From positions 32,139,621-32,203,620 of the forward strand of contig OZ024870.1 in the NCBI GenBank assembly GCA_964017185.1: a stretch of 64,000 nucleotides of DNA, in the 5' to 3' direction. Below are positions 10,523 through 64,000 of the stretch, piece after piece. A program made the position numbers and the translations under genes. The notes below the pieces were generated by a model that made no database searches, had not been told where the DNA came from, and worked only from the letters and a program-made list of their open reading frames with translations. The stretch's first letter is position 1. Each line of letters begins with the position of its first letter. Origin of the DNA: Rugalucina vietnamica. Its lineage: Eukaryota; Mollusca; Bivalvia; Lucinida; Lucinidae.

Positions 10523-12467
10523 TGATGCACTGAAAACCATTTATGGACCAAAGAGTTCTGGGGCCACCGCATTACTCAGTGCAGATGGAGTGCGATTCTC
10601 ACAGATAAAGAGGATATCTTGAAAAGGTGGGCAGAACATTTCAATAGTGTGCTGAATCGACCATCAAGCATCAATGAGGATGCAATCGACAGACTTCCAC
10701 AAATAGAGTGCAATGTTATGTTAGATGAATTACCAACTGTCATGGAAACAAGAAAAGCAGTTCAACAACTGTCATCTGGCAAAGCTCCAAGGGCAGATGC
10801 AATTCCTGCAGATGTTTGTAAGGCCGGGGGGCTACCCATGGCATGGAAACTGATAGAGTTGTTTCACTGTATGTGGAGGAAGGAGGCTATCCCACAAGAA
10901 TTTAAGGATGCGTCCATAATCCACCTAGTATACAAGTGGAAAGGAAATCCACAAGTCTGTGACAACCACAGATCCATCTCCCTCCTATGCATTGCTGGGA
11001 AGATACTGGCAAAATTCTGTTGAACCGCCTGAATGTTCATCTTGATCAGAAGGGACTTATCCCAGAAAGTCAGTGTGGATTCAGAAAAGACAGAGGGACA
11101 ATAGATATGATCTTCACAGCAAGACAGCTTCAGGAGAAAAGCCAAGAACAGAATGTAGATCTATACATGTCTGTCGACCTCACCAAAGCTTTTGACACAG
11201 TTAGTCGTGATGGACTCTGGAAAATCATGGCCAAGTTTGGCTGTCCACCCAGATTCATAGCAATGGTGCGGCAATTTCATGATGGCATGCAAGCACGTGT
11301 ACAAAATGATGGAGAGTTCTCTGAACCTTTTGAGGTAACGAATGGGGTCAAACAGGGCTATGTTATGGCACCAACACTACTCAGCCATGCTCATGGATGC
11401 TTTTCAGGACAGTGACACTGGTTTTCCAATCAGGTACCGTTTTGATGGCAACATATTCAACCTTATAAGGTTGCAAGCCAAAACTAAGGTGCAAACTGAT
11501 GTGCTAGATGAGCTCCTCTATGCAGATGATATGGATAAGAATGCCAGCTCAGAGGCAAAAATGCAAAGAATCTTGGATCAAGTCTCACAGTCATGTGATA
11601 ACTATGATCTCACAATCAGCACAAAAAAGACAGAGGTTGTAAACCAACTAGCACCTTGAAAACCGTACAATATACCAACCATCACTGTGAATGGACAAAA
11701 ACTGAAAGTTGTTGATAAATTCACCTACCTGGGAATCACTTTTTCCAGAGCAGTGCACATTGATGATTAGGTCACTGCCAGAATTGCAAAAGCCAGTGTG
11801 GCATTTGGAAGACTCCGTGCAATGTCTGGGAGGGAAATGGAATCAAGCTCGACACCAAGCTGAAAGTCTACAAGGCTGTGGTACTGCCAACCCTCTTGTA
11901 CGCATGTAAAACCGCGTCATGCAAAAAAGAAGCTTAACCATTTCCACTTAAGCTGTTAATCAAGTGACAAGACACAGAGGTCCTGAAGAAAGCAGGAATG
12001 CAAAGCATGCGTACCGTCTTAAAGCTAGCACAGCTAAGGTAGACTGGCCATGTTATAAGAATGCCTGATGAGCGACTTCAAAAGAAAGTCTTCTATGGAG
12101 AACTACAAGAGGGAAAGCGCTCTCAAAGTGGCCAGAAGAAACGCTACAAAGACACCCTCAAAGCCTCTCTGGAGGATTTCGACATACCAGTTGGGTCTTG
12201 GGAACAGACTGCACAGGTGCGATCAAAGTGGCGAGGTCTCATCAACAAAGGAGCAGCTCTCTATGAAAACAGAGAATCTGTGAAGCTGAAAGAAAGCGCA
12301 GAGAACGCAAAGCCAATACCAATGGTCCATCACATTGACTTGCTCTACTTGCAACCGATAGTTTAGAGCTAGAATTGGCCTAGTCAGCCATCAAAGAACT
12401 CACCAACACACACGAACCTATTCAAGAAATAATGATGGTCTTTCTCATTAGTGAGAGACGAACGGCC
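10523..12467 (+). pseudogene. LINE reverse transcriptase, 5'-truncated and broken
   Basis: This is the remains of a non-LTR retrotransposon polymerase that copies its own RNA into nicked DNA. The N-side RT region is at 10619-11020 (AVQQLSSGKAPRADAIPADV, then a NHRSISLL box). The middle at 10987-11415 has FTARQLQEKSQEQNVDLYM, DLTKAFDTVSRDGLW and GVKQGYVMAPTL. The catalytic LLYADDM lies near 11515-11535 and the thumb (TYLGIT, VTARIAKASVAFGRL) at 11720-11820. A C-terminal segment at 12061-12366 has RMPDERLQKKVFYGEL and ends near a degraded C-x2-C finger. Frameshifts or stops occur near 11020, 11380, 11660, 11770 and 11930. The endonuclease domain is missing. AGTTTTAAA at 10514-10522 and again at 12468-12476 is a 9-bp target-site duplication, and copy A shows the uninserted site. 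The clade is not certain (RTE-like or a related EEP LINE). Confidence 0.9.
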
Positions 12468-22076: not shown

Positions 22077-22404
22077 GTAAGTTATTTTCTGTCAGTGCTG
22101 TAACGCTGCCCGTCAGTGCCGTAACATACATGTAGATTGAAAACATATTAACCGGTACAAGCCGATGTTGTAACTCAAGTACACATACTCACTGAAACAA
22201 GCTCATGTGATGGATGTATTGGTTCCGATTCAGCTCAAACGAGTTCTGGTAGAGGGTTGCTGGAGGCGACATCCATGCGTACACCGGCATGACTGTATTA
22301 TTCTATGGTCGGATCCGAATCGGACCGTGGCCAAGCGATTTTGACTCCACATTCGACATTCGTTTATGTAGTTTGTGATAAATGCATACATATACATTTA
22401 CATT

Positions 22405-23407
22405 TGTGTGACTCTTCTGTGTTGTCAAGTTGTGTGACTCTTCTGTGTTGTCAAGTTGTGTGACTCTGTGTTGTCAAGTTGTATTTATTTTATTTATTTG
22501 TATGACTCTTCTGTGTTGTGTAGTTGTATGACTATTCTGTGTTGTCAAGTTATGTGACTCTTCTGTGTTGTCAAGTTGTATGACTCTTCTGTGTTGTGTA
22601 GTTGTATGACTCTTCTGTGTTGTCAAGTTGTGTGACTCTTCTGTGTTGTGTAGTTGTGTGACTCTTCTGTGTTGTCAAGTTGTGTGACTCTTCTGTGTTG
22701 TCAAGTTGTATGACTCTTCTCTGTTGTGTAGTTGTATGACTCTTCTGTGTTGTCAAGTTGTGTGACTCTTCTGTGTTGTGTAGTTGTGTGACTGTTCTGT
22801 GTTGTCAAGTTGTGTGACTCTTCTGTGTTGTGTAGTTGTGTGACTCTTCTGTGTTGTCAAGTTGTGTGACTCTTCTGTGTTGTCAAGTTGTATGACTTTG
22901 TGTTGTGTGGTTGTATGACTCTTGTGTGTTGTCAAGTTGTGTGACTCTTCTGTGTTGTGTAGTTGTATGACTATTCTGTGTTGTCAAGTTATGTGACTCC
23001 TCTGTGTTGTCAAGTTGTATGACTCTTCTGTGTTTTGTAGTTGTATGACTCTTCTGTGTTGTCAAGTTGTGTGACTCTTCTGTGTTGTGTAGTTGTGTGA
23101 CTCTTCTGTGTTGTCAAGTTGTGTGACTCTTCTGTGTTGTCAAGTTGTATGACTCTTCTCTGTTGTGTAGTTGTATGGCTCTTCTGTATTGTCAAGTTGT
23201 AAGACTCTTCTGTGTTGTGTAGTTGTGTGACTCTTCTGTGTTGTCAAGTTGTGTGACTCTTCTGTGTTGTCAAGTTGTATAACTCCTGTGTTGTGTAGTT
23301 GTGTGACTCTTCTGTGTTGTCAAGTTGTGTGACTCTTCTGTGTTGTCAAGTTGTATGACTCTTCTGTGTTGTGTAGTTGTGTGACGATTCTGTGTTGTCA
23401 AGTTGTG
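22405..23407 (+). repeat. 26-bp minisatellite, about 38 copies, two monomer types
   Basis: Monomers are TGACTCTTCTGTGTTGTCAA plus GTTGTG, and a variant with TGTGTA in place of TGTCAA. The types are intermingled (A-A-B and A-B patterns), and some units have short deletions (22465, 22893 and 23285). Because 26 is not a multiple of 3, long frames on the minus strand cycle through one 26-residue peptide. These frames are a by-product of the repeat and not genes. It lies in what would be the intron between 22076 and 24224. Confidence 0.95.
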
Positions 23408-59650: not shown

Positions 59651-60624
59651 TGACTCACCCGTTAACCGGTGTATACCGTTAACCGGTGTAAAAAGTTAAT
59701 GGGCTATATTTTATACGTCTCTCTGTTCACGGTTGTAATTTTTTTCAGGCAATAGACACGGAGCGTTGTTGCGTGTCAACATACTATTACTTACCATCTT
59801 TGTCATGAAGTCTTCTCACAATCATGTGCTTTCTCGAAATGCGTGCATTTTCATGGTTTTGACACTTTTAGAAACCACAAACTATCATTGCAATGCCATT
59901 GTAAGAATGGTAACAAACATAGTGTATTTCAATTTGAAATATATATTTTTCGGATGTTCGCGTTTAATTATTTATATTCGTTTTGCTCGTCAAGTGATTT
60001 GTGTGCATTTATTAATCACTAACATTTACTACATTATTATCATCATAATTTTCAAATGCGAGAAAAAGATCAATTGTGTAGGAGCTTCTTATTCAAAATA
60101 AAATAATGAAAGCGAATGCAGGGCGGGTCGTGAATGTGTGTGATAAAACCAAGGATGAGTAGTAAGTATTTTAGGATTTTATTATAGCTTTCGGTTCGGT
60201 TCGGCGACACGGACACAGAATTTTGAAAGAGAAGTTTTTTTCTATTATTTTTCGAATTTCCCATTGTTTTTGTTTAGGTCAAGAAGTTTGGGACCTGCAA
60301 TTTCTCATTGTTGGTCGCTGTTTTCCCCCAAATTAAGAGTCTAAGCATCGATTTTCTTAGTCGTGCGATTCGCGCCAAAACAATTCGTACTTTACCTGAA
60401 AATTTCTTTTCTTGAAACTTTTTGGCCTGAGAGCTGACAAGCTTTTGGACCAGAATTTGTTCAAGCTTCATTGACAGTGACATTGAACGGCTCTAGCAGG
60501 GCTGCAACGATCTGTCATAAAATTTAAAGAATCTGAATAGTTTTTCTGGTTTGACCTTCCCCCACCCACTTTTTTTCATATAGTGATTGAAGGTCTTTTT
60601 GTTTAATCATTTGAATTGGAACTC
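59651..60624. other. Region upstream of the LINE; possible 5' UTR
   Basis: CGTTAACCGGTGTA is repeated at about 59670-59700. No clear gene is present. The LINE 5' UTR may begin anywhere here; its start cannot be set without another copy. Confidence 0.35.
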
Positions 60625-62460
60625 ATGGCTTCAGGTTTTGTCGGTCCAACTGTGGGGCGGTTGACTTGTCGGGGTGGAAAAGAGCTGGTATGTTGTTTCC
60701 ATACACCGAAGTCTTGTCCGCTGCTCCTCAGGTTGGCTTTGTTGTTGGTTTTCGGGCTCTGTGTTTGGAAGTGGACAACATCAGGAGATATTTTAGATGC
60801 GAACCAGGACTGTAGTATAGGATTTGGTAAATCAGTTGGTGGAATTGCTCAGAGCTTGGCTCTCACAAGGAAAATTGGTAACCGAAGAGGCTCCGAAGGA
60901 TTACGCAGTTTCAATCCTTCAAAGGGAACAAACTTGTTGATTCTTATTATTTTGGCTGGAGATATAGAAATGAACCCAGGCCCCAGGTTCCAGTGCCGCA
61001 CGTGCAAGAAGTATTGTAAGGCGGCCGAGAAAGCAGTTAAATGTGAAGATTGCGAGAAACGCTTCCATGCGTCTTGCGTAAATCTTGGTCCCGTTGAGTT
61101 ACAAAAGATTGAGTTGGGTAATGATTCTTGGTATTGTTCAAACTGCAAAGCTGAGTGCAGCCTATGCAGTGGTGCTGTTTTGAATTCTCATAAGGCTGTC
61201 CAGTGTGACAAATGTGAAATGTGGGTGCACAATAACTGTTCTTTTATGTCAGACTCAGAGTATGAAATGATGCAAAACTCAAACTGTACATGGATTTGCC
61301 CAAAATGTGACTTTTTCAATTTCTCAGACTCTTTTTTCAATGAACAGTTTAACTTGGAAAGTGAAAATAGGTTTGACCTACTTGCAAGAGGTCATGAAAA
61401 CAAGTCCACTGAAACCTTGAATAGCAAAAACAGTTTTATTAGTGGTCTGAAATTTTCCAGTATCAACATAAACAGTATAAGAGGAAAAAAACTTGAGTTG
61501 TTGGCCTTCATTGATTTTCATCAATCGCAGATTTTGGCGATTCAGGAAACAAAAATTGACAATTCCATATTAACGTCTGAATTATTTCCGGAATCTTTTC
61601 CATACAGCGTGTACAGAAAGGATAGAACCTTACATGGTGGTGGTGTTATGCTTCTTGTACACAAGGACATCCCACACATGCCCCTCACAGAATTGGACAA
61701 TGACTCAGAGTCAGTTTGGGTCAAACTTTTTGTAAATAAGAAAACTCACTTTGTGGCTAGCTGGTATCGACCACCTGTCGATGGTCATTTACCAGTATCG
61801 GACAATGGAAATGACTTATTGAATTCACTGGAAAAGTTTGACAATTTATTTAGAGAACAGCTTGACAAAATCAAAAATATTAATAAAGGCAACAAACCCC
61901 CCTTAATTCATGTTTTAGGTGATTTTAACTTTAGAGATATTGTATGGCCGGACAGACTCAGCAAATCTGGGTCATCATTGAGTCAGACGGAGGGTCAGAT
62001 TTTGATAGATATCATGAATGACCATGGTTTGGAACAATTAGTCAATTTCCCCACCAGAGAAAGAAATACTTTGGACTTAATTTTGACCTCTCTTCCTGGT
62101 CAGTTTGTAGACATTCATTCCCCGGATAAGCTCAGTGATCATGACATTGTTTCTGGCACATTGAAAATTGCTATCCCCCCTATAAAGAAACCTAGGAGAA
62201 AAGTGTATCGTTATCAGAAAGGTGATTATGAATCTATGAGAGCAGAAACACTTAAATTTGCAAAGGAAAGATACTTCAACGGTTACTCAGATACTCGGTC
62301 GGTCCAGGAAAATTTCAATCTCATTACATCGTTTATTCAGGAATCGGCAGATAAACATATCCCCTCAAAAACTAGTCGCTCAGTTTCCTCTGTCCCTTGG
62401 ATAACACTTGAAATAAGAAGGAAGATTCGCATGAAAAAATGCAACTCATGCAAAAGCTAA
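60625..62460 (+). CDS. LINE ORF: 2A-like peptide, PHD-like fingers, EEP endonuclease
   Basis: The first ATG is at 60625 (CTCATGG). Residues about 32-47 are hydrophobic. A second hydrophobic stretch NLLILIILA leads directly into GDIEMNPGP (residues 112-120), a match to the 2A ribosome-skipping consensus D-x-E-x-N-P-G-P with separation expected between G119 and P120. Then come two Cys/His clusters (CRTCKKYCKAAEKAVKCEDC; CSLCSGAVLNSHKAVQCDKC) of PHD type, at about residues 124-225. An apurinic-type endonuclease follows at about 270-525, with SININSIRGKK, QETKIDN, GGGVMLLVHKD, VLGDFNFRDI and LSDHDIV. The endonuclease would nick target DNA for RT priming. The frame ends early at 62458-62460 after a 1-base indel in the A-run at 62434-62439; homologous sequence continues in another frame. 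The family is CR1/Jockey-like. Confidence 0.9.
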   Translation: MASGFVGPTVGRLTCRGGKELVCCFHTPKSCPLLLRLALLLVFGLCVWKWTTSGDILDANQDCSIGFGKSVGGIAQSLALTRKIGNRRGSEGLRSFNPSKGTNLLILIILAGDIEMNPGPRFQCRTCKKYCKAAEKAVKCEDCEKRFHASCVNLGPVELQKIELGNDSWYCSNCKAECSLCSGAVLNSHKAVQCDKCEMWVHNNCSFMSDSEYEMMQNSNCTWICPKCDFFNFSDSFFNEQFNLESENRFDLLARGHENKSTETLNSKNSFISGLKFSSININSIRGKKLELLAFIDFHQSQILAIQETKIDNSILTSELFPESFPYSVYRKDRTLHGGGVMLLVHKDIPHMPLTELDNDSESVWVKLFVNKKTHFVASWYRPPVDGHLPVSDNGNDLLNSLEKFDNLFREQLDKIKNINKGNKPPLIHVLGDFNFRDIVWPDRLSKSGSSLSQTEGQILIDIMNDHGLEQLVNFPTRERNTLDLILTSLPGQFVDIHSPDKLSDHDIVSGTLKIAIPPIKKPRRKVYRYQKGDYESMRAETLKFAKERYFNGYSDTRSVQENFNLITSFIQESADKHIPSKTSRSVSSVPWITLEIRRKIRMKKCNSCKS

Positions 62461-64000
62461 AAAGACTGGTAGTGCAAAATTTAGATCTAAATTTGAATCT
62501 TTACGGAAAGAGATCAAAGCTGATATCAGGAAGCAGCATGATCTTTATGTGAACAACTTGGTGGGAGATGTTAAGGCTAATTCTAGAGATTTTTACAGGT
62601 ACATAAACAGTCAGAAAAAAGATACCCAAGGTATTCCCCCGTTTGAAAAAGAGAAATGGAAGTGGAATAGCTCAATCTGAATTTGAGAAGGCGGAAGAAT
62701 TTAATGGTCAGTTCTCGGATGTTTTCACTAAAAGTGAATACAAACAGGTCCCTCTTATGGATAGATCTGCCCCATTCATGCATGATATTGTGGTCACAAA
62801 GGAAGGGGTGACCAAACTTCTCAAAGGTCTAAACCCGTCTAAAGCCTTAGGGCCTGATGAGCTTCATCCCAGAGTCCTAAAGGAACTGGCTATGGAATTA
62901 GGGCCGGTATTCGCCCATCTCTTCCAGCAGTCAATTGATACAGGTGAAATTCCTAAAGAATGGTCTCTTGCTAATATTTGCCCCCTGTTTAAGAAGGGCG
63001 ACAGGTCACTTGCCCGCAATTACCGCCCTGTTTCTTTGACATGCATTCCTTGTAAGCTTCTTGAACATATTGTATGCTCAAATATTATGGCCCATCTTGA
63101 TGAATATGAACTCCTGTCGGACAGGCAACACGCATTTAGGAAATGGCATAGCTGTGAAACTCAGTTGACTACAGTGATAAATGACTGGGCCAAAATCTTA
63201 GACAAAAAAGGCCAGGTTGACACTTTTATACTCGATTTTGAAAAGGCTTTCGATACTCCTCCCCATGAACTCCTTAAAAGCAAATTGTTCAGCTATGGAA
63301 TAGGTGGAACAACACTGAATTGGATAAATGCTTTCCTTTGTTTCAGACAACAAAGGGTAGTGGTTAATGGTATTAAATCGGATTGGGCTCCAGTTGTGTC
63401 GGGTGTCCCTCAGGGCACCGTTCTCGGCCCCTTGCTGTTTTCCTTGTATATAAATGACATCTCAGCAGACATCGAGTCTGAAATAAGACTCTTTGCTGAT
63501 GATTGTGTTTGCTATCGTGAAATCAAGAATGAAGAGGATACATTGAAACTTCAGAGACATTGATTGCCTAGGCAGTTGGGCTAGAAAATGGGGAATGAGA
63601 TTTCAACCCGTCAAATGCAACATGATGCAGCTGACAAATAAACGGTCTAGTAAGATACAGGCTAACTACACCCTTGAGGGCACTTTACTGGAAAACGTTG
63701 AAAGCATAAAATACCTGGGTGTAACTATCACAAATGATTTGAAATGGAATACTCATATTTCCAATGTTTGTACAAAGGCTAACAGAACTCTCGGATTCTT
63801 GAGGAGAAATTTGTATTCTTGTCCCCCAGATGTGAAAGAAGCAGCTTATAAAGAACTGGTGCGGCCGGTCTTGGAATATGGAAGCTCAGTTTGGGACCCT
63901 CACACTCATGGCCTCCAGGAAGAACTGGAAAAGGTCCAAAATCGTGCGGCAAGGTTTGTGATGGGAAATTATGTTTTTGAAACTGGGAGCATGACTGGCA
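62440..64000 (+). pseudogene. Reverse transcriptase part of the 60.6 kb LINE (frameshifted, cut by window end)
   Basis: Reading resumes as AKAKKTGSAKFRSKFESLRK up to a second shift in the C-run at 62636-62640. It then continues from LKKRNGSGIAQSEFEKAEEF. RT blocks follow in order: LNPSKALGPDELHPRVLKEL, FKKGDRSLARNYRPVSL, FILDFEKAFDTPPHELL, GVPQGTVLGPLLFSLYINDI and the catalytic LFADDCVCY (about 63490). A third shift near 63553 leads to DCLGSWARKWGMRF, KYLGVTITNDLKWNTHI and NRTLGFLRRNL. The frame stays open to base 64000. Three indels, two of them in homopolymers, with almost no stops, suggest a young copy, or sequencing error in an intact one. Confidence 0.9.

Follow-up and report, generated by a model that had tools for sequence, protein, structure and literature searches.

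An octapeptide close to the N-terminus of a retrotransposon protein raises the question whether the single open reading frame of this element is translated into one protein or into two. In the window (the whole 64,000-nt stretch of Rugalucina vietnamica DNA that was analysed), positions 60955–60984 of the plus strand encode AGDIEMNPGP in frame with the ATG at 60625, and the uninterrupted open frame around them (60607–62460) contains the canonical 2A/StopGo core DIEMNPGP. We think it highly probable that this is a genuine 2A/StopGo site, belonging to a young non-LTR retrotransposon with many copies and a single ORF; skipping there would separate its leader from its PHD-endonuclease-RT (PHD-EN-RT) protein.

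Sequence context of the 2A/StopGo core

The following features were identified in and around the open frame:

60190..60624, plus strand: 5' untranslated region of 435 nt with TTCGG repeats at its start; boundary near 60190 in L001, L002, L003, L005, L040 and L044
60625..60981, plus strand: leader peptide of 119 codons; begins with the first AUG and ends with the Gly of NPG
60721..60765, plus strand: distal hydrophobic segment, leader residues 33–47, a possible signal or anchor; best 15-residue hydropathy mean 2.73 (copy L041)
60934..60960, plus strand: L-rich stretch LLILIILAG, directly 5' of the core; hexapeptide LIILAG like viral motifs 2/6
60961..60984, plus strand: 2A/StopGo core DIEMNPGP; predicted skip between Gly (codon end 60981) and Pro (60982–60984)
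60985..61308, plus strand: two tandem C4HC3 PHD-type fingers (Pfam PHD, two stretches, E 2.5e-10)
61459..62151, plus strand: APE-type endonuclease (Pfam Exo_endo_phos / Exo_endo_phos_2)
62461..63594, plus strand: frame-broken middle of the window copy, with an RT piece in another frame (62607–63563; Pfam RVT_1 within 62994–63533)
63595..64000, plus strand: C-terminal part, again in the first frame and cut by the window end (from the frame and the comparison of copies)

The window letters and the frame from the ATG bear out the GDIEMNPGP that the original prediction had placed within 60955..60984, and also its position behind a hydrophobic stretch and before PHD fingers, as LLILIILAG adjoins the core and the Pfam PHD match lies downstream. 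A leader of about 119 residues had been expected; exactly 119 codons were counted from the ATG to the Gly of NPG, with Pro as the next residue. The possible signal segment, predicted at residues 32–47, corresponds to a hydrophobic segment measured in copy L041 at residues 33–47.

The pattern (D/G/C/N)(V/I)ExNPGP has a single match in the six frames of the 64-kb window, and this is also the only NPGP. Sixty random 64-kb sequences from a first-order Markov model gave no core and 14 NPGP matches. In LIILAG-D, p12 is Asp and p11 is Gly, and the likeness of the hexapeptide to viral motifs 2/6 was judged by eye. In a survey of viral sequences, these motifs are six residues long, rich in L and with (A/S/C)G at their end, and D(V/I)ExNPGP follows. 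Motif 6 is among the four upstream classes tested there, which were all active in vitro, and activity was almost lost in nearly every case where characteristic upstream residues were mutated (PMC12846837).

Structure of the element and its copies

Unit boundaries were obtained by comparing the window copy with five other copies, all chosen among matches that share with it the same 201 nt around the motif. The LINE is 4.2 kb long and has a single ORF; it runs from 60190 to a position equivalent to 64389 of the window and consists of leader, 2A, two PHD fingers, endonuclease and RT. Its 5' untranslated region contains no ATG, which is also the case in 37 of 5000 Markov shuffles, so that the ATG at 60625 is the first AUG of the element. 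Within the leader, Met codons were found only at the start and inside the motif.

The best Pfam PHD stretch covers protein residues 178–228, and the spacing of the first finger was read by eye. In copy L041 the tandem fingers (residues 132–228) match the double PHD of DPF2 (ubi-d4, 5b79) among solved structures with an E-value of 5.8e-5; from the finger family they might be able to read histones. The protein of this copy (1228 aa from the ATG) has PHD (two stretches), Exo_endo_phos(_2) and RVT_1 in one frame, and the best matches of its RT in a PDB search were L1 ORF2p entries (8uw3, 1e-19). All five copies examined at the 3' end (L039 and L041–L044) carry a (TTCAGA)n tail. A short-repeat 3' tail replacing poly(A) is typical of CR1/L2-type LINEs. 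By domain order and tail, the element has the architecture of some CR1/L2 LINEs.

The original prediction had placed the motif in a LINE polyprotein. The motif is indeed N-terminal in a LINE ORF, but the window copy is not intact: its first frame stops at 62460 and the remainder lies in two further pieces. An uninterrupted frame of 1234–1235 codons is present in four of the six copies compared (L041–L044), while in L040 the open frame starts no earlier than 34 codons before the core and has a different end. The 201 nt around the motif are identical in all 40 scored copies (358 candidates). The LINE family is therefore young, mobile and high-copy. No relatives were confirmed in the viral-contig or genome-contig collections searched.

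Recurrence and conservation of the motif

The pattern D(V/I/M)ExNPGP has 763 matches genome-wide (386 + 377), and the reversed-pattern control has none (0 + 0). Sixty-four motif loci were collected, corresponding to 59 distinct places since five were counted twice (L001/L040, L003/L044, L004/L043, L006/L041 and L008/L042). They form 31 clusters at 75% identity and 12 at 45%; several of the 31 are single broken copies, and as L045–L064 were chosen for their differing motif spellings these numbers do not represent a random sample. Depending on the family, the motif is followed by PHD-EN-RT, by EN-RT directly, or by a coiled-coil-like ORF1 (L011 and L014), the last being called by eye with no Pfam family above the cut-off. 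In 11 of the 31 clusters p11 holds a residue other than Gly, and the families therefore need not be equally active.

Both families with the coiled-coil-like ORF1 have a lone TAG between this ORF and an EN in the same frame (2371–2373 in L011; 2401–2403 of the turned locus in L014, which lies on the minus strand). Readthrough or reinitiation at this codon is possible, with one locus each.

In an EN-RT tree of 23 rows, the PHD and PHD-less rows are separated by one branch with 100/100 support. The tree is unrooted, has no outgroup and was built from hand-chosen rows, 12 of the 23 being less than half filled, and the coiled-coil families were left out. As the two kinds of rows fall on opposite sides of this branch, the motif occurs to either side of the deepest split seen.

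Since the motif itself led to most of the loci, their perfect cores taken alone prove little. Young copies of the window family were also collected through an upstream anchor of 10 nucleotides plus a single downstream base, which gave 36 LINE rows among the 100 listed of 731 matches. Twenty-nine of these 36 copies keep the octapeptide; conservation among copies, the comparison that the original prediction had pointed to, is thus seen in most of them. The changes in the octapeptide were seven non-synonymous and two synonymous ones. These losses look like ordinary, neutral decay, and conservation within the family is accordingly no proof of function.

In pairwise comparison of subfamilies A, C and D, none of the eight motif codons differs non-synonymously, and the synonymous differences number 4, 4 and 5 for 4.7 synonymous sites; C and D had been located through the motif. 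The PHD region has 0.11–0.18 differences per non-synonymous site among the same subfamilies. For the PHD clade of the window, the evidence for conservation consists of motif-found loci and the young copies from the upstream-anchor search.

A search independent of the motif used a 102-residue EN query from L062, which starts just after the motif; 150 of 2018 candidates were scored, and the matches are PHD-less relatives. Twenty-four matches, the query's own place included, could be compared with the motif list for C1 and C2 to 17.63 Mb. An exact motif lies 2–83 nt upstream on the same strand in 20 of them, in ten DNA spellings, and the matches are 32–65% identical to the query (own place excepted). 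Two of the four matches without an exact motif begin at query residue 24–25 and may be truncated; the other two (C1:59563638 and C1:8853222) extend to the start of the query.

Could the octapeptide be a coincidental, inactive match that is preserved merely by the youth of the copies? The identity of all scored copies over 201 nt means that agreement within the family says little, and the motif changes within it look neutral, as a coincidence would predict. Such a reading has to account for 763 matches against none in the control and for a motif in front of 20 of the 24 EN matches of PHD-less relatives that were found without it, and we regard it as very improbable. A 2A/StopGo site at the N-terminus of the LINE protein is well supported by the canonical core, the LIILAG hexapeptide resembling an active viral class and the recurrence in diverged families, the motif-independent EN matches of PHD-less relatives included. 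Judged from motif, context and recurrence, skipping at NPG/P is very likely.

Hydrophobicity, divergence and possible exchange of the leader

For the analysis of hydrophobicity, one leader per cluster was used, starting at the Met that lies farthest from the motif within a distance of 130 residues. This could be done for 23 of the 31 clusters; without L011, L058 and the non-LINE L064, 20 leaders were measurable. L028, L030, L018 and L038 had been dropped beforehand because their clusters were already represented, and L049 because just 14 aa separate its Met from the motif; the clusters of L012, L025, L029, L036, L046, L056 and L060 were dropped as having no usable leader, being broken or being a near-copy. 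With a window of 15 residues and a threshold of 1.9, both of our own choice, the distal leader is hydrophobic (mean ≥ 1.9) in 12 of the 20 measurable families and below the threshold in 8. The same threshold is passed by only 2 of 1592 downstream protein segments, and by 255 of 2000 shuffled nucleotide sequences. Among the families, hydrophobicity of the distal leader is thus common, though not universal. The 18 residues immediately before the motif pass in 7 of 23 leaders, and the window family fails here (1.28).

By eye, a WRxxIGLF/YRxxIGLHY-like stretch could be seen in the PHD-less leaders L015, L018, L048, L053, L061, L062 and L063, and more weakly in L031, L045 and L058.

Two parts of the leader differ in how they diverge. 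Between A and D, pN/pS is 0.73 in the N-terminal half (64 codons of a gapped alignment) and 0.17 over the 34 codons that adjoin the core; the corresponding value for A and C is invalid, since the homology of L020 stops at about codon −42. Among less close relatives, matches between leaders are short and span 11–25 residues. Both the free divergence of the N-terminal half and the shortness of the matches would fit a distal leader that is the functionless remnant of a reduced ORF1. Only the last ~30 codons would then count, forming the upstream portion of a StopGo site that removes the remnant. We find this rather unlikely, as the distal hydrophobic segment recurs in more than half of the measurable families and a useless peptide would not be expected to keep the WRxxIGLF-like stretch that several PHD-less leaders have in common by eye.

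In L038 and L027 (family C), the 5' untranslated region and leader are ~80–100% like those of family A until ~80 nt before the core, and ~57–92% from there on. L022 shows this likeness to family A from ~280 nt before the core onward, and L020 only from ~120 nt. A sharp break in identity ~80 nt before the core was seen against L041 in L038, L022 and L027. From these alignments, it looks like families have exchanged a 5' module whose junction falls within the leader, each family keeping its own 2A. We tentatively suggest that the single-ORF LINEs may not be ORF1-less, and that on both sides of the EN-RT tree a module of hydrophobic leader and 2A, exchanged between families, might yield a small, membrane-directed partner together with EN-RT from one mRNA. 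We regard this as less likely than not.

Another reading is that of dual targeting, which the original prediction had raised and where the leader would be a signal or signal-anchor and skipping only partial, so that a fused minority goes to the ER and a skipped majority to the cytosol or nucleus. The hydrophobic segment at leader residues 33–47 would be in line with such a role, and there is a precedent in sea-urchin NLR proteins, whose N-terminal 2A is reported to double as a signal sequence (PMC4981915). The segment begins only after ~32 residues and includes an Arg, however, and it is hard to see what purpose an ER-directed EN-RT would serve. According to PMC12846837, the four viral upstream classes tested skip at ~92.7% to almost 100% in reticulocyte lysate, which would leave little fused product. 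We consider dual targeting doubtful.

Proposed role of the site

We return to the 2A/StopGo site as the most probable explanation. Translation would start at the first AUG (60625) and produce the hydrophobic leader. At NPG|P, the 119-residue leader would be released and synthesis would resume at the Pro, giving a PHD-EN-RT protein free of the leader, while ribosomes that do not skip would make a leader-fused form. In this way the site could keep a greasy and possibly membrane-directed leader off a nuclear enzyme, with both products coming from one mRNA. Motif, frame, anatomy and recurrence over diverged families can be read from the sequences, whereas skipping itself, its efficiency and the destination and any membrane role of the leader are what we infer. 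The original prediction had the leader released and a fingers/EN/RT protein starting with Pro; motif, frame and recurrence support the site, but the window copy itself cannot make the full EN-RT.

If the first 119 codons are released by 2A, the single-ORF PHD LINEs would be two-protein elements after all, which bears on how LINEs without a separate ORF1 work. The 763 matches, at least 31 clusters and uninterrupted copies within one genome form a natural mutational series, which could be used to test the upstream residues needed by StopGo and the role of the leader.

Other observations in the genome and the window

One of the collected motifs lies outside the LINEs. At L064/L065 (G000:C2:17619000-17633500, minus strand), LKLLLSG-DVEQNPGP is found in an apparent spliced exon of a non-LINE gene. 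A putative splice donor (ATG|GTAAGC) lies two codons downstream of the core. At a distance of 5.7 kb there is a putative acceptor, TTTTCTTTTTCAG, from which a phase-0 frame of as many as 384 codons begins. The product has no match in Pfam, NCBIfam or PDB. Both exons are nearly unchanged at three places, on C2, C4 and C11 (where the frame has 935 codons); C3 has a partial copy, and C4 also a relative with 39% identity. This arrangement might reflect duplication of a gene, or else L064/L065 could belong to a mobile element that has not been recognised as such.

The 56-Mb contig C11 contains ~96 (counted by eye) of the 150 best-scored matches of 5033 candidates to the endonuclease family PF14529, many of them in frames of ~1243 codons. 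One LINE may have piled up on this contig, unless the choice of candidates was biased. The PF14529 matches were not used as a motif-independent sample, and the EN protein of L062 took their place. The window also contains an RT-like fragment of a different LINE at 10526–11415 (by eye) and a long tandem array with a 26-nt unit at 22356–23406.

Comparison with known systems

2A sequences are reportedly present in APE-type LINEs of multicellular organisms, where they are said to mediate translational recoding (so the title of Odon 2013, Mol Biol Evol 30:1955), and the 2A core found here likewise sits in an APE-type LINE. The L1Tc element of Trypanosoma cruzi is also said to have a 2A in frame with its LINE proteins (Heras et al. 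2006); it is likewise an in-frame 2A, but in a trypanosome LINE.

For the N-terminal 2A of sea-urchin NLR proteins, both skipping and a signal function are reported in PMC4981915. There the leader has 26 residues and belongs to a host immune gene, whereas the leader of the R. vietnamica LINE has 119 residues and a separate distal hydrophobic segment. The comparison with viral StopGo motifs draws on PMC12846837, which is a survey of viral sequences, and LIILAG of the R. vietnamica LINE was likened to these by eye.

In overall structure the element resembles CR1 subgroup 6 and L2 subgroup 4, which according to PMC4120745 apparently have a single ORF with an N-terminal PHD before EN-RT. Such elements are treated there as a possible reversion to R2-like single-ORF elements or as possible parasites. 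The single-ORF PHD-EN-RT order is the same, and the term '2A-like' is absent from the main text of that paper; unlike the elements in its description, the R. vietnamica element has two fingers and a 2A at the end of the leader. A recurring hydrophobic leader before a 2A, or its exchange between families, was not found in the literature passages on such LINEs; we make no claim of novelty, as Odon 2013 lies outside these passages. 2A sequences in APE-type LINEs and single-ORF PHD LINEs are, as far as these sources go, both already known, and the family described here adds another member.
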